Shown here in pieces: positions 12,909 to 21,635 of a stretch of 46,562 bases of DNA. The translations under genes were made by a program, and so were the position numbers. Location of the stretch: contig JASHOF010000046.1 in the NCBI GenBank assembly GCA_030041255.1, forward strand, positions 1 to 46,562, read 5' to 3'. Positions within the stretch are counted from its first letter, which is position 1; every line of letters begins with the position of its first letter. Under the pieces are notes generated by a model. The model searched no databases and was not told the origin of the DNA. It saw only the letters and a list, made by a program, of their open reading frames with translations. This stretch comes from Acetobacteraceae bacterium. Lineage in GTDB: Bacteria > Pseudomonadota > Alphaproteobacteria > Acetobacterales > Acetobacteraceae.

Positions 12909-13964
12909 ATGATGGCGGATCATTCCGACCTGGGCGAGGTCGAAGAGACCGTGGTGCCGTTCGATGCGGAGGACGGCATGCCCCTCAATCTGGTCCACCT
13001 CCGCGGCCCGCGCACTGCCTCACGCGGGCCGGTATTGGTGGTGCACGGCGCGGGAGTAAGGGCCAACCTGTTCCGCCCGCCGACCGAAACCACCATCGTG
13101 GCCGCCCTGATCGCGCATGGCTACGACGTCTGGCTCGAGAACTGGCGCGCCAGCATCGATCTGCCGCCCACTCCCTGGACACTCGACAAGGCCGCCCTGT
13201 ACGATCATCCACGAGCGGTCGAAACGATCGTTGCCGCAACCGGTGCGGATAAGATCAAGGCGGTCATCCACTGCCAGGGTTCCACCAGCTTCATGATGTC
13301 GGCCGTGGCCGGACTGGTGCCGCAGGTCACGACCATCGTATCCAATGCGGTCTCACTGCATCCGCAGATCCCCGCGATCACGCACGCCAAATTTCGCCTG
13401 GCGCTGCCCGTGCTCAGCCGGTTGCTGGATTATCTCGACCCGCAATGGGGAATCGAGGCGCCGACCACGATCGCGAAGCTGATCACCGCCTGGGTCAAAG
13501 CGACTCATCATGAATGCCACAATACGGTTTGCCGGCTGGTGAGCTTCACCTACGGCGTCGGATACCCGACCCTCTGGAGCCACGCCAACCTGAATCCTGA
13601 GACGCATGCCTGGATCAGGCATGAATTCGCCAAGGTACCGGTAAGCTTCTTTCGCCAGATCTACCGGTGCGTGCTGGCCGGCCACCTGGTTGCCGTCGAC
13701 GGCCTGCCCGGGCTTCCGGCTCGCTTCGGTGTCGACCCACCGCGCACCGACGCCCGGTTCGCATTCTTCGCCGGCCAGAACAACCGTTGCTTCCTGCCGG
13801 AAAGCCAGCAGGCGACCTTCGCCTGGTTCGACCGGCACCGCCCGCGGTACCACACGATGCACATGCTGCCGGATTACGGGCACCTCGACGTGTTCATCGG
13901 CAGGGACGCCGCCCGCGACGTCTTCCCCTTGATGATCGAAGAACTCGACAAGGAGTGGGCCTGA
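12909..13964 (+). CDS. Alpha/beta hydrolase with a cysteine nucleophile, GMC-oxidoreductase-associated type
   Basis: A 351-residue alpha/beta-fold enzyme. The oxyanion strand is VLVVHGAGVRANLF, and GYDVWLENWRASIDL follows. The nucleophile elbow reads VIHCQGST, so Cys122 stands where most members have Ser. The acid/His end is GQNNRCFLPESQQATFAWF and LPDYGHLDVFIGRDAARDVFP. The patterns VCRLVSFTYG and LNPETHAWIRHEF are, as I recall, typical of the hydrolase domain fused to cholesterol-oxidase-like GMC oxidoreductases in other bacteria. Here it is a stand-alone gene, first in an eight-gene cluster that includes a separate GMC oxidoreductase. No signal peptide, so probably cytoplasmic. An acyl ester or thioester substrate is likely by family. 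The stop overlaps the next start (TGATG). Confidence 0.85.
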   Translation: MMADHSDLGEVEETVVPFDAEDGMPLNLVHLRGPRTASRGPVLVVHGAGVRANLFRPPTETTIVAALIAHGYDVWLENWRASIDLPPTPWTLDKAALYDHPRAVETIVAATGADKIKAVIHCQGSTSFMMSAVAGLVPQVTTIVSNAVSLHPQIPAITHAKFRLALPVLSRLLDYLDPQWGIEAPTTIAKLITAWVKATHHECHNTVCRLVSFTYGVGYPTLWSHANLNPETHAWIRHEFAKVPVSFFRQIYRCVLAGHLVAVDGLPGLPARFGVDPPRTDARFAFFAGQNNRCFLPESQQATFAWFDRHRPRYHTMHMLPDYGHLDVFIGRDAARDVFPLMIEELDKEWA

Positions 13965-14860
13965 TGGTGCAGCCGGGACGGATCAGCCGACTGGCCGGCC
14001 GCTATGCGCTGGTCGATGACATTCCGTTCCGGATGCCGGTCCGGGGGATCAGATCATCGACCATCCTGGCTGCCTTCCCCTGCGATCCGGTCAAGGCGCG
14101 CGTGCTGCTGGCCAGCAGCGAGGTGCATCCGTTCGTGCTCTGGAACAAGGCGCTGCTGCTGGTGACCGTGGTCGATTACCGCGACACCAATATCGGCAAG
14201 TATATCGAGTTCAGCATCGCCCTTGCCTGCACCCACGGTGCGCGGCCGGCGCCGAGGCTGCTGCCGGTGCTGGCGCGCGGCCTCTACGGCTTTGGCCAGT
14301 GGGTTTACGACCTGCCTGTCAGCACCGAGATTTCGGTGAAGGGCGGCAAGGGCATCTGGGGCATGCCGAAGCACCAGGCCAATCTCAACTACATCGAGGG
14401 CAAGGAATCCGTCAGCAGCCAGTATGACCTCGATGGCCGGCTTGGCGTCTTCTTCGAGGTCAAGCGGCCACGCTCGATCTGGCTGCCGGCCAGCACCAGC
14501 GCGGTGAATTACTGCGCGTTCCGCGGAATGCTGATGAAGTCCACCATCTATTTCTCCGGCCGGGCGGGGTTCAGCCTGTTCCGCAAGGGTGCGGCGCGGC
14601 TCGTGATCGGCGATGTGCCGCGCGTGCAGGTGCTGAAGACGATCGGCCTCGAACCCGACCCGATCGCCACGCTCTATATGCCGGAAGTCAACGGCGTCCT
14701 GGATGATCATTGCGAAAGCTGGTTCTGCACCTATGAGCAGCCGCCGGCCTCACCGCCCGAGGGACTGGAAAGCGTCGTCAACCTCGGCGAAAGCCAGCAA
14801 TGGCTGCCGCCGCCCTCCGCGCCGGTGCCGGGACGCGCACGGCAGAGCGCGCTGACATGA
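13964..14860 (+). CDS. Acetoacetate decarboxylase family protein
   Basis: A 298-residue protein with the acetoacetate-decarboxylase (ADC) fold signature: VYDLPVSTEISVKGGKGIWG followed by MPKHQANLNY. In characterised ADC the first Lys of a Lys-Lys pair forms the Schiff base and the second lowers its pKa. Here the equivalent pair is Lys136-His137, so the second lysine is missing. The fold may therefore do a different Schiff-base reaction or a cyclase/dehydratase-like job, as several ADC-superfamily members do. Coupled by TGATG to the hydrolase before it and by ATGA to the small gene after it. No membrane segment or signal peptide. Family assignment is good; function is open. Confidence 0.8.
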   Translation: MVQPGRISRLAGRYALVDDIPFRMPVRGIRSSTILAAFPCDPVKARVLLASSEVHPFVLWNKALLLVTVVDYRDTNIGKYIEFSIALACTHGARPAPRLLPVLARGLYGFGQWVYDLPVSTEISVKGGKGIWGMPKHQANLNYIEGKESVSSQYDLDGRLGVFFEVKRPRSIWLPASTSAVNYCAFRGMLMKSTIYFSGRAGFSLFRKGAARLVIGDVPRVQVLKTIGLEPDPIATLYMPEVNGVLDDHCESWFCTYEQPPASPPEGLESVVNLGESQQWLPPPSAPVPGRARQSALT

Positions 14861-15078
14861 GCCCCTGGCCGGAAGTACTCGACGCCGCGCCGCCGATCCT
14901 CTGCTGCTCGATGGATTTCGGCACCGGCTGGTCGATGGGTCTGTTCTCGTTCCCCGTCCGCCCACAGATCACGGTCGAAAACGACGACCTGCCGTTCGTG
15001 CCCAAGGTCACGGCGGCAACGACATTCTTCACCTGGATGACGCTGGTGATGATGGCGCGCGCCGGGGCCGCGATATGA
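14857..15078 (+). CDS. Small uncharacterised protein (73 aa)
   Basis: Not recognised. It starts at ATG 14857, overlapping the ADC stop by ATGA, and ends by ATGA overlap with the next gene; this double coupling is the main support that it is real. The sequence is mildly hydrophobic, with Cys-Cys at residues 14-15 (PPILCCSMDFGTGW), aromatic residues in the middle and a C-terminal hydrophobic stretch (TAATTFFTWMTLVMMARAGA) that could be a single membrane helix. It might be a small partner of the four-helix membrane protein that follows. Confidence 0.7.
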   Translation: MSPWPEVLDAAPPILCCSMDFGTGWSMGLFSFPVRPQITVENDDLPFVPKVTAATTFFTWMTLVMMARAGAAI

Positions 15079-15464
15079 GAAGGGGCGTGCTGTTCTGGGT
15101 GGTGGTGGCGATCGCCGCCATCACGGTGTGCACCGGCTGCGTGCAAATCCTGGTTCCGGCGCCGATCCTCAGCGTGCTCTCGGCCGGCCGATCGCCGACG
15201 GCGTTGCATCTGTTCGGCCTCGTCGGCATGTTCATGGCCCTCTTCGGGGGCGCCCTGCTGCATGGCCTGTTTGCCCATCGGCCCAATCCGGTGGTGATCC
15301 TGTGGGCCGGGCTGCAGAAATTCGGCGCCGTGGCAGGAGTTGGAATCGGAGTGCTGCACGGCATCTTCGCCCCGCTGGCGCTCCTCGTCACCCTCTTCGA
15401 TTTCGTCTCCGGCGTGCTGATCCTGGCGTACCTGCCCCACGCGCGCGACCTCGAGGGCTCGTGA
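15075..15464 (+). CDS. Small integral membrane protein (129 aa, four helices)
   Basis: Not recognised. Four hydrophobic segments are clear: about residues 5-30 (WVVVAIAAITVCTGCVQILV), 43-66, 72-90 and 93-121. The loops are short and the C-terminus polar. ATG 15075 overlaps the preceding stop (ATGA) and its TGA overlaps the next ATG (TGATG). Four-helix proteins of this size are often scaffold or accessory subunits. In this cluster it would be the obvious anchor for soluble lipid-acting enzymes, which is inference. Confidence 0.75.
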   Translation: MRRGVLFWVVVAIAAITVCTGCVQILVPAPILSVLSAGRSPTALHLFGLVGMFMALFGGALLHGLFAHRPNPVVILWAGLQKFGAVAGVGIGVLHGIFAPLALLVTLFDFVSGVLILAYLPHARDLEGS

Positions 15465-15820
15465 TGCCTTTGCCGGCGCGGGTGTTCTTCTATGGCTACA
15501 CATGGATGCTGCCCGGTGCGGGCGGCTCCGGCATTCTGATCGCGCCCTGGGAACTGCCGCACGTCTTTTCCGTCAATCGGTCGGCGATGGCGCCGCAGTC
15601 GGCGGCGACGCTGCTCGCGCAGTGCCGGTTTCTCAAATCGATGGAGTTCGCCTTCAGCCTGTTCCGCCGGGTGTACCGGCAGCGAATCCGGGCCGGCGGA
15701 ATGGCGCGGCTGATCTCGCTTGCGGTGGACGGCGTGCCGCACCGGGCATTCCTGATTTCTGCCGGACCGGAGCCGATCTCCGGGGTCCTGACAGGGCGGC
15801 AACCATTGAGGCCGGCATGA
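15464..15820 (+). CDS. Small uncharacterised protein (118 aa)
   Basis: Not recognised. It starts at ATG 15464, coupled by TGATG to the membrane protein and by ATGA to the patatin-like gene. The sequence has an aromatic N-terminus (ARVFFYGYTWMLPGAGGSG), a basic middle (FRRVYRQRIRAGGMARL) and no clear membrane helix or signal peptide. A conserved neighbourhood with the ADC-fold gene and the lipase would be the best clue to its role. The protein is long enough, and its coupling tight enough, to be treated as real. Confidence 0.7.
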   Translation: MPLPARVFFYGYTWMLPGAGGSGILIAPWELPHVFSVNRSAMAPQSAATLLAQCRFLKSMEFAFSLFRRVYRQRIRAGGMARLISLAVDGVPHRAFLISAGPEPISGVLTGRQPLRPA

Positions 15821-17364
15821 CACACCCGACATTCCTTGCGCCGCCTGCCGGCTATGCGGGAGCGAAACGTTCGTTGATCCTGGCGGGCGGGGGGATGCGC
15901 GTCGCGTACCAGGCGGGGGTGTTGCAGGCGCTCGCGGAAGCCGGGCTCTCCTTCCATCATGCCGACGGCACTTCCGGAGGGACGATGAATCTCGCGATGC
16001 TGCTATCCGGTCTCGCGCCCTCCGAGATGGTGGAGCGCTGGCGCACTCTCGATCCCAGGGATTTCGCCGGATTCATGCCGCTCGCCGATTATCTGCGCGG
16101 CCCCAACCTGCCCGCGATGGGGAGTGCCGATGGCGTGGTGAACAAGGTGTTCCCGCATCTCGGCATCGATATTGCCCGGATCAACGAAGCTGCTGGCATG
16201 ACCGGCACGTTCAATCTGTGCAATTTCTCGCGCAAGACGCTGGAGACGATCGAGCATACGGCACTGAGCCTCGAATGGCTGGTCGCCGGCATTTCGCTTC
16301 CGATCTTCATGCCGGCGGTACGGAAAGGGGATGCGTTCTACACCGATGCGGTGTGGATCAAGGACGCCAACCTGATGGAAGCGGTGCGGCGCGGCGCCGA
16401 GGAAATCTGGCTCGTCTGGTGCATCGGCAATTCCGGCCGCTACCAGAATGGCGCCTTTCGCCAATACGTGCATATGATCGAGATGAGCGCCAACGGGGCG
16501 TTGTTCCAGGAGCTTGAACGGATTGCCGGGATCAATGCGCGGATCGAAGCCGGAGAGCCTGTCGGCGGACGGCAACGGCCGATCGTGCTGCACGTGATCC
16601 GGCCGGAATATCCGCTGCCACTCGACCCCGCCTATTTCTTTGGCCGCATCGACGGCGCGACGCTGATCGCGCTCGGCTACGAGGACGCCAAGTCCTACCT
16701 TGCCAGATGCCGGCCGGAAGGGCTGCCGTTGACCCCGGAGGTCACGCACATGCGCGATGAGACAATCGGGCTCACTTTCCGTGAAATGATGTCGGGCGGC
16801 TTCGCGCTGGGCGCGACGGATCCGGAAAGCGGCCGACAGAAGGGCCAGGCCGGGGGAACGACTCTTGCTCTGCACGCAAGCGTGATGATCCGGGACCTGG
16901 AGCGGTTCCTGACCGAGTCCGAGCATCCCGGGTCGCTTGCCGGCTCCATCGAGTTTGCGCCATTCGGCGGCACGATCATCGGCACCGGCGGCGTGTTCAA
17001 CCTGTTCAACCCGAGTGGTGAGCCCGGACTGAAAACCATGGTCTATGAACTCGGATTCCGGCACGCCGGCAAGCCCTACTACCTTGCCGGCCGCAAGCTG
17101 GTGCGGGAAAGCCCGGCCTTCGACGCCTGGACAGAGACGACGACACTTTATACCGTGTTGCACGAGGGCGAGGATGCGACCGGCCCGATCGCCGGGGCGG
17201 GGATTCTCTCGCTCGGCGTTGCAGACTTGATTCGCATGCTCGGCACGGTGAGCACGCCGGGAACGGACGATGCCGCACAATCGGCTGCAGCGATCGCCCG
17301 TTTCGGGAAATTCTTCCTCGGCCAGATGTGGAAAAGCTACGGCCCGCATCTGCGCGGCATTTAG
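15817..17364 (+). CDS. Patatin-like phospholipase with additional C-terminal domain
   Basis: A 515-residue protein. The patatin features are a glycine-rich oxyanion loop LILAGGGMRVAYQAGVLQAL and the nucleophile elbow GTSGG with Ser53. The partner Asp probably lies in YTDAVWIKDANL (Asp177), where the usual D-G-A/G is D-A-V. Residues from about 310 on form a second region: FGGTIIGTGGVFNLFNPSGE, then MVYELGFRHAGKPYYLAGRK and TTTLYTVLHEGED. I recall that pattern from the central part of fused GMC-oxidoreductase/hydrolase proteins in other bacteria. So a lipid acyl hydrolase is joined to what may be a lipid- or sterol-binding module. It starts at ATG 15817 inside the stop of the 118-aa gene. No signal peptide. 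Confidence 0.85.
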   Translation: MTHPTFLAPPAGYAGAKRSLILAGGGMRVAYQAGVLQALAEAGLSFHHADGTSGGTMNLAMLLSGLAPSEMVERWRTLDPRDFAGFMPLADYLRGPNLPAMGSADGVVNKVFPHLGIDIARINEAAGMTGTFNLCNFSRKTLETIEHTALSLEWLVAGISLPIFMPAVRKGDAFYTDAVWIKDANLMEAVRRGAEEIWLVWCIGNSGRYQNGAFRQYVHMIEMSANGALFQELERIAGINARIEAGEPVGGRQRPIVLHVIRPEYPLPLDPAYFFGRIDGATLIALGYEDAKSYLARCRPEGLPLTPEVTHMRDETIGLTFREMMSGGFALGATDPESGRQKGQAGGTTLALHASVMIRDLERFLTESEHPGSLAGSIEFAPFGGTIIGTGGVFNLFNPSGEPGLKTMVYELGFRHAGKPYYLAGRKLVRESPAFDAWTETTTLYTVLHEGEDATGPIAGAGILSLGVADLIRMLGTVSTPGTDDAAQSAAAIARFGKFFLGQMWKSYGPHLRGI

Positions 17365-17374
17365 CAAGCGCTCA

Positions 17375-18946
17375 ATGGACTTCGACGCCGTCATCATCGG
17401 CAGCGGATTCGGCGGCGCCGTCGCTGCCTGCCGCCTCGCCGAGGCCGGCGCACGCGTTCTGGTGCTGGAGCGCGGCCGGCGCTGGGACCGCTGCACGTAT
17501 CCGAGCGTCACCGGGAAGGACTGGTTCTGGAACGAGCGGGATCCCGTCCACCACAGTGGCTGGATCGACCTCCGCATGTTTCCGCATATGGCGGTGGCGC
17601 AGGGTGCCGCGGTTGGCGGCGGCTCCCTGATCTACGCGAATATCTCGGCGGTGCCGCCGGCCGACGTGTTCGCCGCCGGCTGGCCGCCGGAAATCACCTT
17701 CGAAGAGCTTCAGCCCCACTACGCGACCGTGGGGGCGACGATGAACGTTCAGCAGGTGCCGGACAATCAATGGACGCCGCGGATGCACCTGATGCACGAG
17801 GCAGCCGGGGCGATCGGGGCAGCCGACCGCTTCCGCCTGCTCGATCTCGCGGTGACCTTCGACCCGGGGTTCGATGTCAGCGCCTCCGATGCGCCCGCGA
17901 CCGGGCGCACCAGATGGCATACCAATGCACAGGGCGTGGCGCAGGGCACCTGCGTGCATTGCGGAAATTGCGACATCGGCTGCCCGGTCGATGCCAAGAA
18001 CACCCTGGACCGGAACTACCTTGCGCTGGCCGAAAAACGCGGCGCGGACGTGCGGCCGCTCAGCCTGGTGCGGGCCATCGAGCCGGAGGGCAGCGGATGG
18101 CGCGTTCGCTTCGAGCGGCTCGACAAAGAGGCCCGATCAGAGAGCGCGACGGGGGGGATCGTCGTCCTCGCCGCGGGTTCGCTCGGCTCGACCGAGCTCT
18201 TGCTGCGCTGCCGCGACACGCTGCGCACGCTGCCGAACGTGAGCCGACGACTGGGGCAACGGTGGAGCAGCAACGGCGACTTCCTGACCCCCGCGCTCTA
18301 TACGGGGCGGAAGCCGGAGCCGTCCAGCGGCCCGACGATCACCTGCGCAATCGAGTTCTTCGATCGCAGCCGCGATGGCCAGTCGTTCTGGATCCAGGAC
18401 GGCGGATTCCCGAATCTGCTCGCCGACCTCGCCGCTTCGGCCTCGGCTCAGCACCCGATCGGGCACACGCTGCTCGAATGGCTGCGCACGGAACTGCTGC
18501 GCCACGCGCCGCTCGACAATGTCATGCCATGGTTCGCCCAGGGCATCGATGCGGCGGACGGCGTGCTCCGCCTCGAACGGCGTTATGAAATCGCCGGCGA
18601 GTGGGAACTGACCCTGGAGTGGGATATCGCGGAATCGAAAAGGCTCTTCGATTCCATCGTCGATACCCACAAGGCCCTCTCGCGCGGGACCGGCGGGGTC
18701 CCGCTGGTGCCGCCAAGCTGGAGCCTGATGCACTATCTCATCACACCGCATCCGCTGGGCGGCTGCGGTATGGGAACCGGGCCAGAGAACGGCGTCGTCG
18801 ATCATCGCGGCGAGGTCTTCGGCTACCACAACCTTTTCGTGCTCGACGGCGCCATCGTGCCGCGCGCAGTCGGCGTCAACCCGTCGCGCACCATCGCCGC
18901 GCTCGCCGAGCGCGCGGCGCGGATGATCGCGGAGCGGCAAAGATGA
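17375..18946 (+). CDS. GMC family FAD-dependent oxidoreductase (cholesterol-oxidase-like) with a four-Cys motif
   Basis: A 523-residue flavoprotein. The N-terminal Rossmann motif is VIIGSGFGGAVAACRLAEAG (GxGxxG at residues 9-14), the GMC signature around GAAVGGGSLIYANI follows, and the C-terminal active-site region is HPLGGCGMG through VNPSRTIAALAERA. The closest style is the cholesterol-oxidase-like branch, which oxidises a secondary alcohol. Residues 193-203 read CVHCGNCDIGC followed by Pro, a CX2CX2CX3CP spacing like a 4Fe-4S ferredoxin; related GMC proteins carry similar cysteines and their role is unclear. It begins 10 bp after the patatin stop. No Tat or Sec signal, so cytoplasmic or membrane-associated. 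A sterol, hopanoid or other lipid alcohol is a plausible substrate, by inference. Confidence 0.88.
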   Translation: MDFDAVIIGSGFGGAVAACRLAEAGARVLVLERGRRWDRCTYPSVTGKDWFWNERDPVHHSGWIDLRMFPHMAVAQGAAVGGGSLIYANISAVPPADVFAAGWPPEITFEELQPHYATVGATMNVQQVPDNQWTPRMHLMHEAAGAIGAADRFRLLDLAVTFDPGFDVSASDAPATGRTRWHTNAQGVAQGTCVHCGNCDIGCPVDAKNTLDRNYLALAEKRGADVRPLSLVRAIEPEGSGWRVRFERLDKEARSESATGGIVVLAAGSLGSTELLLRCRDTLRTLPNVSRRLGQRWSSNGDFLTPALYTGRKPEPSSGPTITCAIEFFDRSRDGQSFWIQDGGFPNLLADLAASASAQHPIGHTLLEWLRTELLRHAPLDNVMPWFAQGIDAADGVLRLERRYEIAGEWELTLEWDIAESKRLFDSIVDTHKALSRGTGGVPLVPPSWSLMHYLITPHPLGGCGMGTGPENGVVDHRGEVFGYHNLFVLDGAIVPRAVGVNPSRTIAALAERAARMIAERQR

Positions 18947-18966
18947 CGATGATCGGAGGCTGACAC

Positions 18967-20304
18967 GTGGCACTCGATCTGAAGACATTCCGCAGCCCTG
19001 TCCTCTCGCTCTATCAATCCGCGATCGAATCCCTGGTCCGCTCGAAGCTTCCGCCCGGGGCGCCACGCCCGGGCCTCGGTAACGACATCGTCCGGGCGGC
19101 AACCGAGATCGCGAGTGCCCACGACAAGGCCGAAGCGGTGCCGGACCAGCCACCCGCCGGCATCGCCAGCGATGTCTGGCGGGCTGCCTGCCTTACCCAC
19201 GATTTCCTCGATGCCCGTTTCCATGGCAATAACGCCGCCGCCGCCGATATCGCCGCCGAGTTGCGAGACGGCCAGTTCGATCCTGGCTGGATCGAAACGC
19301 TGACCTCCTATGTCGGCTATTTCGGGCCGGACGGAAAGCTGCGCGAGCCGGACTATATCTGGCCCACGCCGGACATGAAGGTGCTCGCTTTCAAGCCAGG
19401 CTCGGTCGTTGCATTGCTCGGCGACTGGGGCACCGGCACCGAGGCAGCGGTCGAGATCGCGAAACAGATCGCAACCTTCAACCCGGATCTGCTCATCCAC
19501 CTCGGCGACATCTACTACTCGGGGACTCCGGACGAATGCCGGCGCAACTTCACCGAGATCCTGAACAGGACATTCAACCGCAGTACCGTGCCGATCTACA
19601 CGCTGGCCGGGAACCACGACATGTACTGCGGCGGCGTCGGCTATTACGGGCTTTTGAAAACCCTCAACCCGCTGCCGCTCGCCAGGCAGCCGGCGAGCTT
19701 CTTCTGTCTGCGCAGCACTGGCGGAGCATGGCAATTCATCGCCATGGACACCGGGCGGTTCGACCATGCACCGCTTGCGGAGCAGGACGTGCTGGTGCAG
19801 ATCGAGCCGAGAGAGCAGGCGTGGCTGGCAGAGCGCATTGCCGAATTTCCCGGCCGGACCATTCTGCTCTCGCACCACCAGTTCTTCTCGGCGTTCTCGG
19901 AAATCGGCAAGCCGGCTGCAGACGGTTCCTTGATCCCGTATAATCCAAACCTGCGGAAGACCTTCGCCGCCTTCAACGCAGCCGCGTCGCGAGGCAGGGG
20001 AAGCATTGCCGCGTGGTTCTGGGGTCACGAGCACACGTTGGGCATCTACAAACCCTATCTCGACCTCGAAAAGGGCCGATGCCTCGGCCATGGCGCGATT
20101 CCGGTGCTGATCGGTGTCGGCGATCACCCGCTTGCCAGGCTCGTCGATCCGCCGACGCTTCTCACCGGGCCGCCTGGCAGAGACGGCGAAGTCTATGCGC
20201 ACGGCTTCGCGATCCTGAGATTTGCGGAGAATGGCGCGTGCCAGGCGGAATATTACAACGATAACGAGCCGGGGCATGCCTTCTTCAGCGAAACGCTCGG
20301 CTGA
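18967..20304 (+). CDS. Calcineurin-like metallophosphoesterase
   Basis: A 445-residue protein starting at GTG 18967, with GGAGG about 8 nt upstream. The metallophosphoesterase motifs are complete: GDWGTG (Asp153), HLGDIYYSGTP (Asp181), LAGNHDMY (Asn216, His217), LLSHHQFFS and WFWGHEHTLGIY. They bind two metal ions for phosphomonoester or diester cleavage. The first 140 residues are a non-catalytic N-terminal region of unknown type. It is the last gene of the cluster, 20 bp after the GMC gene, and an intrinsic terminator follows at 20321-20341. The substrate is not evident; a phosphorylated lipid intermediate would fit the neighbours but is inference. Confidence 0.88.
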   Translation: MALDLKTFRSPVLSLYQSAIESLVRSKLPPGAPRPGLGNDIVRAATEIASAHDKAEAVPDQPPAGIASDVWRAACLTHDFLDARFHGNNAAAADIAAELRDGQFDPGWIETLTSYVGYFGPDGKLREPDYIWPTPDMKVLAFKPGSVVALLGDWGTGTEAAVEIAKQIATFNPDLLIHLGDIYYSGTPDECRRNFTEILNRTFNRSTVPIYTLAGNHDMYCGGVGYYGLLKTLNPLPLARQPASFFCLRSTGGAWQFIAMDTGRFDHAPLAEQDVLVQIEPREQAWLAERIAEFPGRTILLSHHQFFSAFSEIGKPAADGSLIPYNPNLRKTFAAFNAAASRGRGSIAAWFWGHEHTLGIYKPYLDLEKGRCLGHGAIPVLIGVGDHPLARLVDPPTLLTGPPGRDGEVYAHGFAILRFAENGACQAEYYNDNEPGHAFFSETLG

Positions 20305-20318
20305 GCGGGAGCGTCGGA

Positions 20319-21635
20319 TCAGGGACCGGCGGGTCCCTTTTCGATGCCGAGCAACGCGATCTTCGGTTCGGGCAGGGGCACCGGCGCCGGCAATGGGGGC
20401 GGCACCTGCCACTTGAGGCGGCCGACCATTCCGCAGTGGGAACAGACCGGCTGCCACTTCGGAGCCCGGCCGCCGCAGGCCGCGCAGCGCCACTCCGGAT
20501 CGGCTTCGGCGGTCGCTGCCGCATGCAGGGCCTCGCGCTCCGCCGCGTTGTCCTTGCCTTCGGCTTCGGCGCGCGCGATGCCAGCGATCAGCAGCCAGAG
20601 CCGCCGCCAGGCGATCCCCTCGGCACGGAGCGCCTCGGCATGCCGGCGCGCCTCGCCGGGAAGTCCGGCACCGAGCGCCGTCTCGGCGAGCAGGAAGCGA
20701 GACTCCGGATGGGCAGGATTACGTGCGGCCAGCCGCTGTGCGGCATTCACGCGCGCCATCGGGTCAGCCAGCGGTTCGAGAAGGAAACGGGCAAGATCGG
20801 GGTGCGGGGCCTCCGCCCAGGCGTTGCCGAGCACCGCTTCGGCGCGCCTTTCGCGCCCCGTTGCGCGCAGGCGGCGGGCCAATGCCAACGCGGCGGCCGG
20901 TAGAGAAGGATCGGCGGCGAGCGCCTCGCGGGCGAGCCTGAGGGCAGCCTTCGGATCCGTCTCTGCCTCGGCCGCCGCCGCGGCAAGGGCGGCCCGGGCA
21001 GGCGCATCGGCCAGCGCGAGTGCGCCGCGCCAGTCCTCCGTTTCGATGGCGATACGGCGCCGCTCGCGCCTGAGCCACGCACCACCGGGATGGGCCGCTT
21101 CGGCACGTCGCGCGAGGGCGGCCGCCTCGCCCCAATCCGCGTGCAGGATGGCCTCCCGCAGCAAGCCACGCAGCCCGAGGAAGGCGCTGTCCTTGCGCTC
21201 GGCAAGCAAGCGGAATGTCGCCTGCGCCTCATCGCTTCGCTCGCCGAGCCTGGCGGCCTCCGCCGCCAGCAGCAGCGTCTGCGGCGTGTCCCCCAACAGG
21301 CGGCGCGCGGCCTCGGCCTGCCGCCGCGCGGCGCCCGGTTCGCCTGCCGCAAGGGCGACCAGCGCGCGCGTCACCGCGCGGTCGCCTTGCCCGCGATGGC
21401 GGCCGGATCGCCAGAGCCGGAAGCGGCGAGGCAGGCGAAAAAGGGCACCGAGCAACCGCAACACGACATAGACGATGATCAGAACGATGATCAGCGCCAG
21501 CGCCGCGATGCTGGTCGGCGCCGCAATGCTCATGCTGCCGATCTCGACCGAAACGTGGCCCGGCAGGCTGGCCAGGCCGAAAGCAATGGCAAGCGCGAGC
21601 AGGCAGGCGAGAAGGAAAAGAAATATCCGACCCAT
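20319..21635 (-). CDS. hemY: HemY-type TPR membrane protein (heme biosynthesis operon)
   Basis: A 438-residue protein with two N-terminal membrane helices (about residues 2-22 and 41-64), then alpha-helical TPR-like repeats rich in Ala, Leu and Arg. Near the C-terminus it has a zinc-ribbon-like Cys set (CAACGGRAPKWQPVCSHCG), as in alphaproteobacterial HemY proteins. This is the HemY of COG3071, not protoporphyrinogen oxidase. It is thought to assist late heme or envelope functions, with no defined reaction. Its ATG 21635 shares a base with the stop of the mitofilin-like gene (TGATG). The last codons overlap the terminator hairpin of the convergent cluster. Confidence 0.85.
   Translation of the reverse strand: MGRIFLFLLACLLALAIAFGLASLPGHVSVEIGSMSIAAPTSIAALALIIVLIIVYVVLRLLGALFRLPRRFRLWRSGRHRGQGDRAVTRALVALAAGEPGAARRQAEAARRLLGDTPQTLLLAAEAARLGERSDEAQATFRLLAERKDSAFLGLRGLLREAILHADWGEAAALARRAEAAHPGGAWLRRERRRIAIETEDWRGALALADAPARAALAAAAAEAETDPKAALRLAREALAADPSLPAAALALARRLRATGRERRAEAVLGNAWAEAPHPDLARFLLEPLADPMARVNAAQRLAARNPAHPESRFLLAETALGAGLPGEARRHAEALRAEGIAWRRLWLLIAGIARAEAEGKDNAAEREALHAAATAEADPEWRCAACGGRAPKWQPVCSHCGMVGRLKWQVPPPLPAPVPLPEPKIALLGIEKGPAGP
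20321..20341 (+). terminator. Intrinsic terminator of the metallophosphoesterase cluster
   Basis: AGGGACC (20321-20327), a 4-nt loop, GGTCCCT (20332-20338), then a T-run through 20341. It sits 16 bp after the metallophosphoesterase stop and inside the final codons of convergent hemY. The stem codes for the Gly-Pro-Ala-Gly-Pro end of HemY on the other strand. Confidence 0.75.

Follow-up and report, generated by a model that had tools for sequence, protein, structure and literature searches.

A recurrent gene cluster from an Acetobacteraceae bacterium joining a hydrolase, a patatin and a GMC flavoenzyme, with a possible role in processing a hydrophobic alcohol

What do eight closely packed genes, several of them resembling lipid enzymes, do together in an Acetobacteraceae bacterium? 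The window analysed here is a stretch of 46,562 nucleotides (assembly GCA_030041255.1, contig JASHOF010000046.1), in which positions 12909-20304 carry, all on the + strand, the genes that we call hyd, adc, s3, s4, s5, pat, gmc and mpe, in that order; pat encodes a patatin followed by a domain named here PatC. Five of the junctions are overlaps, TGATG at the hyd/adc and s4/s5 joins and ATGA at 14857, 15075 and 15817, and the remaining two are gaps of 10 and 20 bases. A preliminary description of this DNA had read the genes as a coupled, single-strand cluster resembling a split version of one long cholesterol-oxidase-like protein, and reading the sequence confirmed the shared strand, the junction types and the quoted hydrolase and patatin motifs. 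We consider it very likely that the genes encode one functional unit. As its best explanation we favour, with moderate confidence, a set of enzymes that work as one module, probably at a membrane, on a hydrophobic alcohol or its esters.

Recurrence of the cluster

We scanned a genome contig collection covering 84,980 species with hyd, which gave 187 confirmed relatives. The best 80 were kept, and removal of two duplicates (L059, with the same hyd as L058, and L066, with that of L064) left 78 loci, near-copies such as L086/L091 and L123/L124 being retained. These loci, some of them at contig ends, were chosen by hyd alone, and their neighbours were sought by tblastn. The same-strand run containing hyd also held adc in 68 of the 78 loci, PatC in 67, patatin in 57 and gmc in 54, with hyd, PatC and GMC jointly present in 54; a phosphoesterase-type gene was found in 34, s4 in 31, s3 in 29 and s5 in 11. 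When the count was restricted to the 53 loci with at least 5 kb before and at least 8 kb after hyd, adc was present in 46, PatC in 48 and a phosphoesterase-type gene in 22, while hyd, PatC and GMC stood in one run in 41 and anywhere in the locus in 47. The cluster is therefore real, its neighbours recurring beyond chance in loci selected by a single gene. This bears out the co-occurrence of components on which the preliminary description had staked its reading, and the exact order of all eight components is found in a second Acetobacteraceae genus (G249, locus L136).

Conservation throughout the Acetobacteraceae, which had also been envisaged, is rejected. At E 1e-20 only 5 of 397 family genomes held any relative of hyd, three of them of the cluster type (G000, G058 and G249, the window's own genome included) and two of the fused type described below; a sample of the phylum gave 9 of 398, both samples including the window's genome. 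By record title the hyd tree spans at least nine phyla (Pseudomonadota, Actinomycetota, Myxococcota, Acidobacteriota, Cyanobacteriota, Nitrospirota, Bacteroidota, Chloroflexota and Rhodothermota). Together with that of its sister, the window's hyd falls beside two sequences from Acidimicrobiaceae (Actinomycetota) (Shimodaira–Hasegawa-like approximate likelihood-ratio test (SH-aLRT) 93 in a quick tree), a grouping that suggests transfer without proving it. Armatimonadota and Nitrospirota metagenome-assembled genomes from one study (L058, L059) have identical hyd genes, and the Armatimonadota contig may be mis-binned. A large Arthrobacter plasmid (L039, 3661-12785) carries hyd-adc-s3-s4-pat, a phosphoesterase-type gene and an upstream GMC-PatC fusion. 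In Nostocaceae, GH1 and solute-binding SBP_bac_3 domains are combined in one gene a short way beyond pat (L067, 13927-16131; Pfam matches for the L067 copy only), and related genes occur in L062, L068 and L070.

Fused proteins

Several of the same components also occur in single polypeptides. Fused proteins of about 1,130-1,270 residues, found among collected plasmids, in genomes of the family and on one genome contig, match in succession gmc, the part of pat between about residues 300 and 514, and hyd in all seven cases examined, namely those of Bernardetia (L041), Azospirillum oryzae (L042), Leptospira (L043), Variovorax (L044), Paraburkholderia (L064) and two members of the window's own family (L048, L049). 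E-values against these proteins run from 4e-29 to 2e-46 for hyd and from 4e-12 to 1e-24 for PatC, and along A. oryzae HUE56_RS04425 (WP_149201188.1, 1,143 amino acids) the GMC, PatC and hydrolase parts align one after another, each over its length. The proposed collinearity with one long cholesterol-oxidase-like protein thus passed the check in seven of seven. Of the term 'split version', the relation to fused proteins stands, but the change may have run either way, by splitting or by fusion. What the fused proteins contain in one chain is shared among three genes in the window, where PatC belongs to the patatin and adc, s3-s5 and a phosphoesterase are present as well. Fused-type hydrolases are about 27-34% identical to the window's hyd, whereas those of other clusters reach 55-66%. 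Two loci (L106, L120) have hyd, PatC and gmc but neither adc nor a patatin, which is the very content of the fused proteins.

The GMC, PatC and hydrolase parts were seen as separate genes, as GMC-PatC, PatC-GMC, PatC-hydrolase and GMC-hydrolase fusions, and as all three joined. Counted over 89 loci (the 78, L039, L136 and nine others), patatin-PatC fusions number 46, GMC-PatC 25, PatC-hyd 10 and PatC-GMC 4, and s4 is fused to patatin in seven loci from Myxococcota. Single instances were found of adc-s3, GMC-hyd and GMC-phosphoesterase fusions, the last in G249 (L136), from another Acetobacteraceae genus, where gmc and mpe form one confirmed reading frame; fusions seen once could be assembly errors. 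Every component except s5 is fused to another in at least one locus, and these fusions suggest that the products may form a complex. A second, divergent hydrolase copy lies inside or next to the cluster, or the fused gene, in L119 (12023-13009), L122 (4785-5765) and L048 (738-1940).

Predicted activities of the products

Conserved residues were counted over matches in 90 loci and the window, including duplicates, second copies and fused and plasmid relatives but excluding stop-bearing or shortened matches (5 of 80 for gmc, 3 of 95 for PatC, 1 of 72 for adc, 1 of 61 for patatin and 0 of 93 for hyd). The pat product (15817..17364, +), with its patatin part at residues 1-300, matches PF01734 (Patatin) at 63.4 bits (cut-off 27.7), and both the GxSxG serine, Ser53, and Asp177 occur in 61 of 61 rows. 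In its AlphaFold model (predicted local distance difference test score, pLDDT, 90.4) the patatin domain resembles PlpD (Z 25). The patatin fold and the Ser-Asp dyad are common to pat, PlpD, CapV and CapE, from which pat differs in carrying PatC and in its metabolic-looking cluster. PatC, a domain of about 200 residues encoded at 16765..17352 (+), has no Pfam or NCBIfam match. Within the pat model it comprises eight strands from residue 319 and a closing C-terminal helix (486-511); its best Foldseek match, a weak one, is lipocalin-type prostaglandin D synthase (E about 3e-3), and VIA-align returned various barrels at Z 6-10, also weak. PatC is thus tentatively a lipocalin-like beta-barrel, which would suit a lipid-holding role. 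It is also found free-standing, in Pseudonocardia (L045) and in L056 and L106. A patatin search of 200 family genomes gave matches in 97, nearly all of the listed ones short and confined to the patatin core, with full-length matches in three (G000, G058, G139) and matches to the PatC part in G120 and G026; a scan of viral contigs with the patatin gave no relative.

The gmc product (17375..18946, +; 523 amino acids) is a cholesterol-oxidase-like GMC flavoenzyme, matching GMC_oxred_C (PF05199) at 58.7 bits (cut-off 24.6) and GMC_oxred_N (PF00732) at 40.1 (cut-off 23), with the catalytic pair His459/Asn502 in 76 of 76 rows. GMC-type cholesterol oxidases (PDB 1b4v) are its nearest solved sequences and have the flavin adenine dinucleotide (FAD) motif and the His/Asn pair in common with it. 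The protein differs from them in scoring 276 bits against the cholesterol oxidase equivalog NF058674, below the cut-off of 850, and in a cysteine motif, C193-x5-C199-x3-C203 with an additional C196 (17951..17983, +), that is a candidate iron–sulfur (Fe-S) site. In the alignment C193, C199 and C203 occur in 76 of 76 rows and C196 in 61 of 76. The x5/x3 spacing equals that of the 3Fe-4S ligands Cys212/218/222 in the FAD-dependent glucose dehydrogenase of Burkholderia cepacia (PMC6719666), itself a GMC enzyme, whereas the sequence of gmc is nearer to cholesterol oxidase. The motif therefore points to a dehydrogenase, and since C196 is present in the window a 4Fe-4S cluster is possible. Among the listed matches of a 47-residue fragment around these cysteines (the best 60 of 163) are Fe-S proteins such as ferredoxins, which fits an Fe-S cluster but does not discriminate 3Fe-4S from 4Fe-4S.

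The first gene, hyd (12909..13964, +), encodes an alpha/beta hydrolase of 351 amino acids (Abhydrolase_1, 30.8 bits, cut-off 25.8) whose AlphaFold model (pLDDT 93.4) is matched best by lysosomal acid and gastric lipases (Z 31.9-32.7, root mean square deviation 3.1-3.2 over 318-327 residues). With these lipases it has in common the fold, the HxQG elbow and the histidine of a C-terminal YxHLD motif. However, the elbow, between strand 116-121 and helix 122-133 of the model, lacks their nucleophilic Ser and has instead Cys122 (codon 13272-13274), a Cys in 91 of 94 aligned rows and Gly in the other three. His325 is present in 93 of 94 rows, and Asn292, invariant in 94 of 94, appears to take the place of the usual Asp, judging from spacing, secondary structure and its position after strand 283-289. 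A Cys-His-Asn triad is accordingly a candidate. The adc product (13964..14860, +; 298 amino acids) has the acetoacetate decarboxylase (ADC) fold (PF06314, 37.3 bits, cut-off 29.8), with Lys136, Glu82, Arg187, Asp247 and Asp248 each in 72 of 72 rows. The conserved Lys of the PK motif and Glu82 appear to be as in the ADC family, from which adc differs in having His137 directly after the lysine (69 of 72 rows) and in that comparison with structure databases gave no close or convincing solved relative. A weak alignment (E 0.54) places its GGxxIWGxPK motif against ADC chain 3c8w, by which Lys136 is a candidate Schiff-base lysine.

The last gene, mpe (18967..20304, +), encodes a calcineurin-like metallophosphoesterase of 445 amino acids (PF00149, Metallophos, 52.6 bits, cut-off 21.5). 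The phosphoesterase-type genes in the runs fall into seven sequence groups (A in 1 locus, B in 21, C in 4, D in 3, E in 2, F in 1 and G in 2), as if the activity rather than a particular gene were needed. Representatives of groups A, D and F (Metallophos) and G (PhoD) score above the Pfam cut-off; two group-B members reach 20.1 and 19.5 bits against 21.5, one of them annotated 'metallophosphoesterase' in its record, and groups C and E, with no Pfam match, were called phosphoesterase-type from an SDxH-type motif.

The three small proteins, previously described simply as unknown, divide into one intact protein and two apparent remnants. The intact one, s4 (15075..15464, +; 129 amino acids), is a small membrane protein with three hydrophobic segments and residues strongly conserved across 36 rows. 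By contrast, s3 and s5 seem to be degenerate versions of membrane proteins. The s3 product (14857..15078, +; 73 amino acids) appears to be what is left of a longer membrane protein akin to the anthrone oxygenase family: the five relatives that we examined are 150-183 amino acids long with three hydrophobic segments, where a simple hydropathy scan found none in the window's copy, and the Arthrobacter homologue scores 27.5 bits against PF08592 (cut-off 27.3), that of L136 22.1 bits, and that of L104 gives no match. For s5 (15464..15820, +; 118 amino acids), a DUF4345-like protein that seems to have lost its hydrophobic segments, three relatives examined have 134-140 amino acids and two or three such segments where the same scan found none, and the L112 homologue reaches 48.2 bits against DUF4345 (cut-off 26.5), the window's copy a sub-threshold 19.1. 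In the sister genome G058 (L046/L050) an internal deletion has taken out s4 entirely and the greater part of both s3 and s5, while the five other genes of the cluster are retained at 93-97% identity to those of the window. Because s3 and s5 are shortened here and s3-s5 mostly deleted there, these proteins look dispensable in this lineage.

On its upstream side, a gene that reads as a TRAP-type transporter ends 112 bases before the cluster; downstream, an open frame on the opposite strand ends 14 bases beyond it. The terminator said to close the cluster holds as to position, a G+C-rich inverted repeat followed by a T-run at 20312..20341 (+) being a possible terminator in an inverted-repeat scan, but such sites are no commoner than in shuffled sequence (4 against a mean of 4.6), so that as a class they are not above chance.

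A possible pathway and its alternatives

In the module that we favour, the phosphoesterase and two acyl enzymes, the patatin and the Cys-type, acid-lipase-like hyd, would release or move phosphate and acyl groups, with the hydrophobic substrate held in the lipocalin-like barrel of PatC. Oxidation of the freed hydroxyl would fall to the GMC flavoenzyme, its electrons passing via an Fe-S cluster to an electron carrier and not directly to oxygen. The ADC-fold enzyme might then act on the carbonyl by a lysine Schiff base, for example in decarboxylation of a beta-keto acid, and s4 would anchor the patatin at the membrane. Taken as a whole, this order of reactions is rather doubtful.

Several observations weigh against such a module. 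Three of the 78 loci have neither adc nor patatin nor PatC in the run (L099, L121 and L073, the last at a contig end), and in many clusters one or other of s3-s5, the phosphoesterase, the patatin part and adc is missing. Phosphoesterase types with a representative above the Pfam cut-off cover just seven loci. The GMC partners form two groups by identity to the window's gmc, 54 of 76 rows at 25-40% and 22 of 76, including the window and its sister, at 45% or more, with none at 40-45%, and the substrate may therefore vary between clusters. Nor did we find a general marker of one lipid class in 32 carrier genomes of our own choosing (those of 29 loci, mostly isolates, with G000, G058 and G249): a triterpene cyclase (squalene-hopene cyclase N domain) is matched in 18, PhaC (PhaC_N) in 15 and wax synthase in 6, and a general hopanoid, wax or polyhydroxyalkanoate (PHA) link is rejected on these counts. 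The squalene/phytoene synthase family is present in 29 of 32 carriers against 153 of 200 genomes in a background sample of the phylum, but the apparent excess was rejected, since carriers assigned by name to the Pseudomonadota gave 16 of 18 (Fisher p 0.38). The genomes of L104, L106, L084, L095 and L097 each have two matches to this family and no squalene-hopene cyclase match.

The first three of these marker counts argue against a single self-made lipid class, although none of the four is decisive. The preliminary description had pictured a sterol, hopanoid or wax-like compound being oxidised and deacylated. Such a self-made substrate would suit the likeness of gmc to cholesterol oxidases (NF058674, 276 bits; cholesterol oxidases in the PDB), the fold that hyd has in common with lysosomal acid lipase/cholesteryl ester hydrolase and the triterpene cyclase match in the window's own genome. 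With the cyclase absent from 14 and wax synthase from 26 of the 32 carriers, however, neither a hopanoid or sterol nor a wax made by the cell itself is likely as the general substrate; NF058674, moreover, requires 850 bits, and hyd has no nucleophilic Ser. Sterols from the environment may serve instead.

PHA synthases use a Cys nucleophile. A role in PHA-like hydroxyalkanoate metabolism, with hyd as a synthase-like acyltransferase, the GMC enzyme oxidising a hydroxy acid and the ADC-fold protein decarboxylating the keto acid, would make sense of Cys122, of the weak profile matches of hyd to PhaC and of PhaC chains as its next fold match (Z 26). We nevertheless judge it improbable, as the acid-lipase folds fit better (Z 32-33) and PhaC_N is matched in only 15 of 32 carriers.

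CapV and CapE are effectors of cyclic oligonucleotide-based antiphage signalling systems (CBASS). That they have the patatin fold in common with pat raises the question of an effector or accessory module in a bacterial conflict system, and five of the 78 loci (L083, L093, L100, L109, L115) indeed carry a relative of one CHAT protein. In four of these a phosphoesterase-CHAT pair adjoins the cluster (L083 15307-18952, L093 15345-18919, L109 15453-18925 and L115 4083-7615, the CHAT domain being Pfam-checked in L115 only), and in L115 a SIR2-TIR gene and a gene that reads as STAND-like follow gmc. Yet the other 73 loci have no relative of that CHAT protein, and when hyd, adc, pat, gmc and mpe were compared with the PADLOC models the single match was a weak one of mpe to PDC-S10 (E 3.9e-4). 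A search of a conflict-system paper (PMC7159879) for six terms gave no mention of GMC or patatin. A conflict role, too, has little to recommend it. Least probable of all is an island of unrelated lipid enzymes without joint function, which would account for the patchy spread and for components that come and go but not for the same neighbours in at least nine phyla, nearly all of them fused to one another.

For the module as we propose it, published expression data offer one point of contact. On xylan, according to PMC7409140, Roseithermus sacchariphilus RA raised the expression of two of eight 'auxiliary activity' genes, the GMC gene AWN76_007025 (1.88-fold) and AWN76_007050, a patatin listed as AA3 (2.70-fold), for which the authors suggested a role in aiding xylan breakdown. 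Another strain of R. sacchariphilus (L063) has the gene order gmc-hyd-adc-s3-s4-pat, and the spacing of the tags fits AWN76_007025 and AWN76_007050 being the first and last genes of such a cluster. In published tables of carbohydrate-active enzymes (CAZymes; PMC7409140, PMC6087703), a patatin that fits the cluster is listed as GMC-type (AA3), perhaps by way of PatC, which is a hazard for annotation.

We found no description of such a cluster in the open-access literature, subscription papers not being covered. We tentatively suggest that it could be a widely transferred, previously undescribed lipid-oxidation machine built round the new PatC barrel, which would pass a single substrate among an acid-lipase-like acyltransferase with a Cys-His-Asn triad, the patatin, a GMC dehydrogenase bearing an Fe-S cluster, the phosphoesterase and the lysine enzyme of ADC fold, different lineages having fused different neighbours of one assembly line. 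The enzyme set recurs in nitrifiers, methanotrophs, cyanobacteria, myxobacteria, actinomycetes and others, and it puts the unnamed PatC domain in context. The fusions predict which of its proteins should bind each other, and the pathway is therefore testable.

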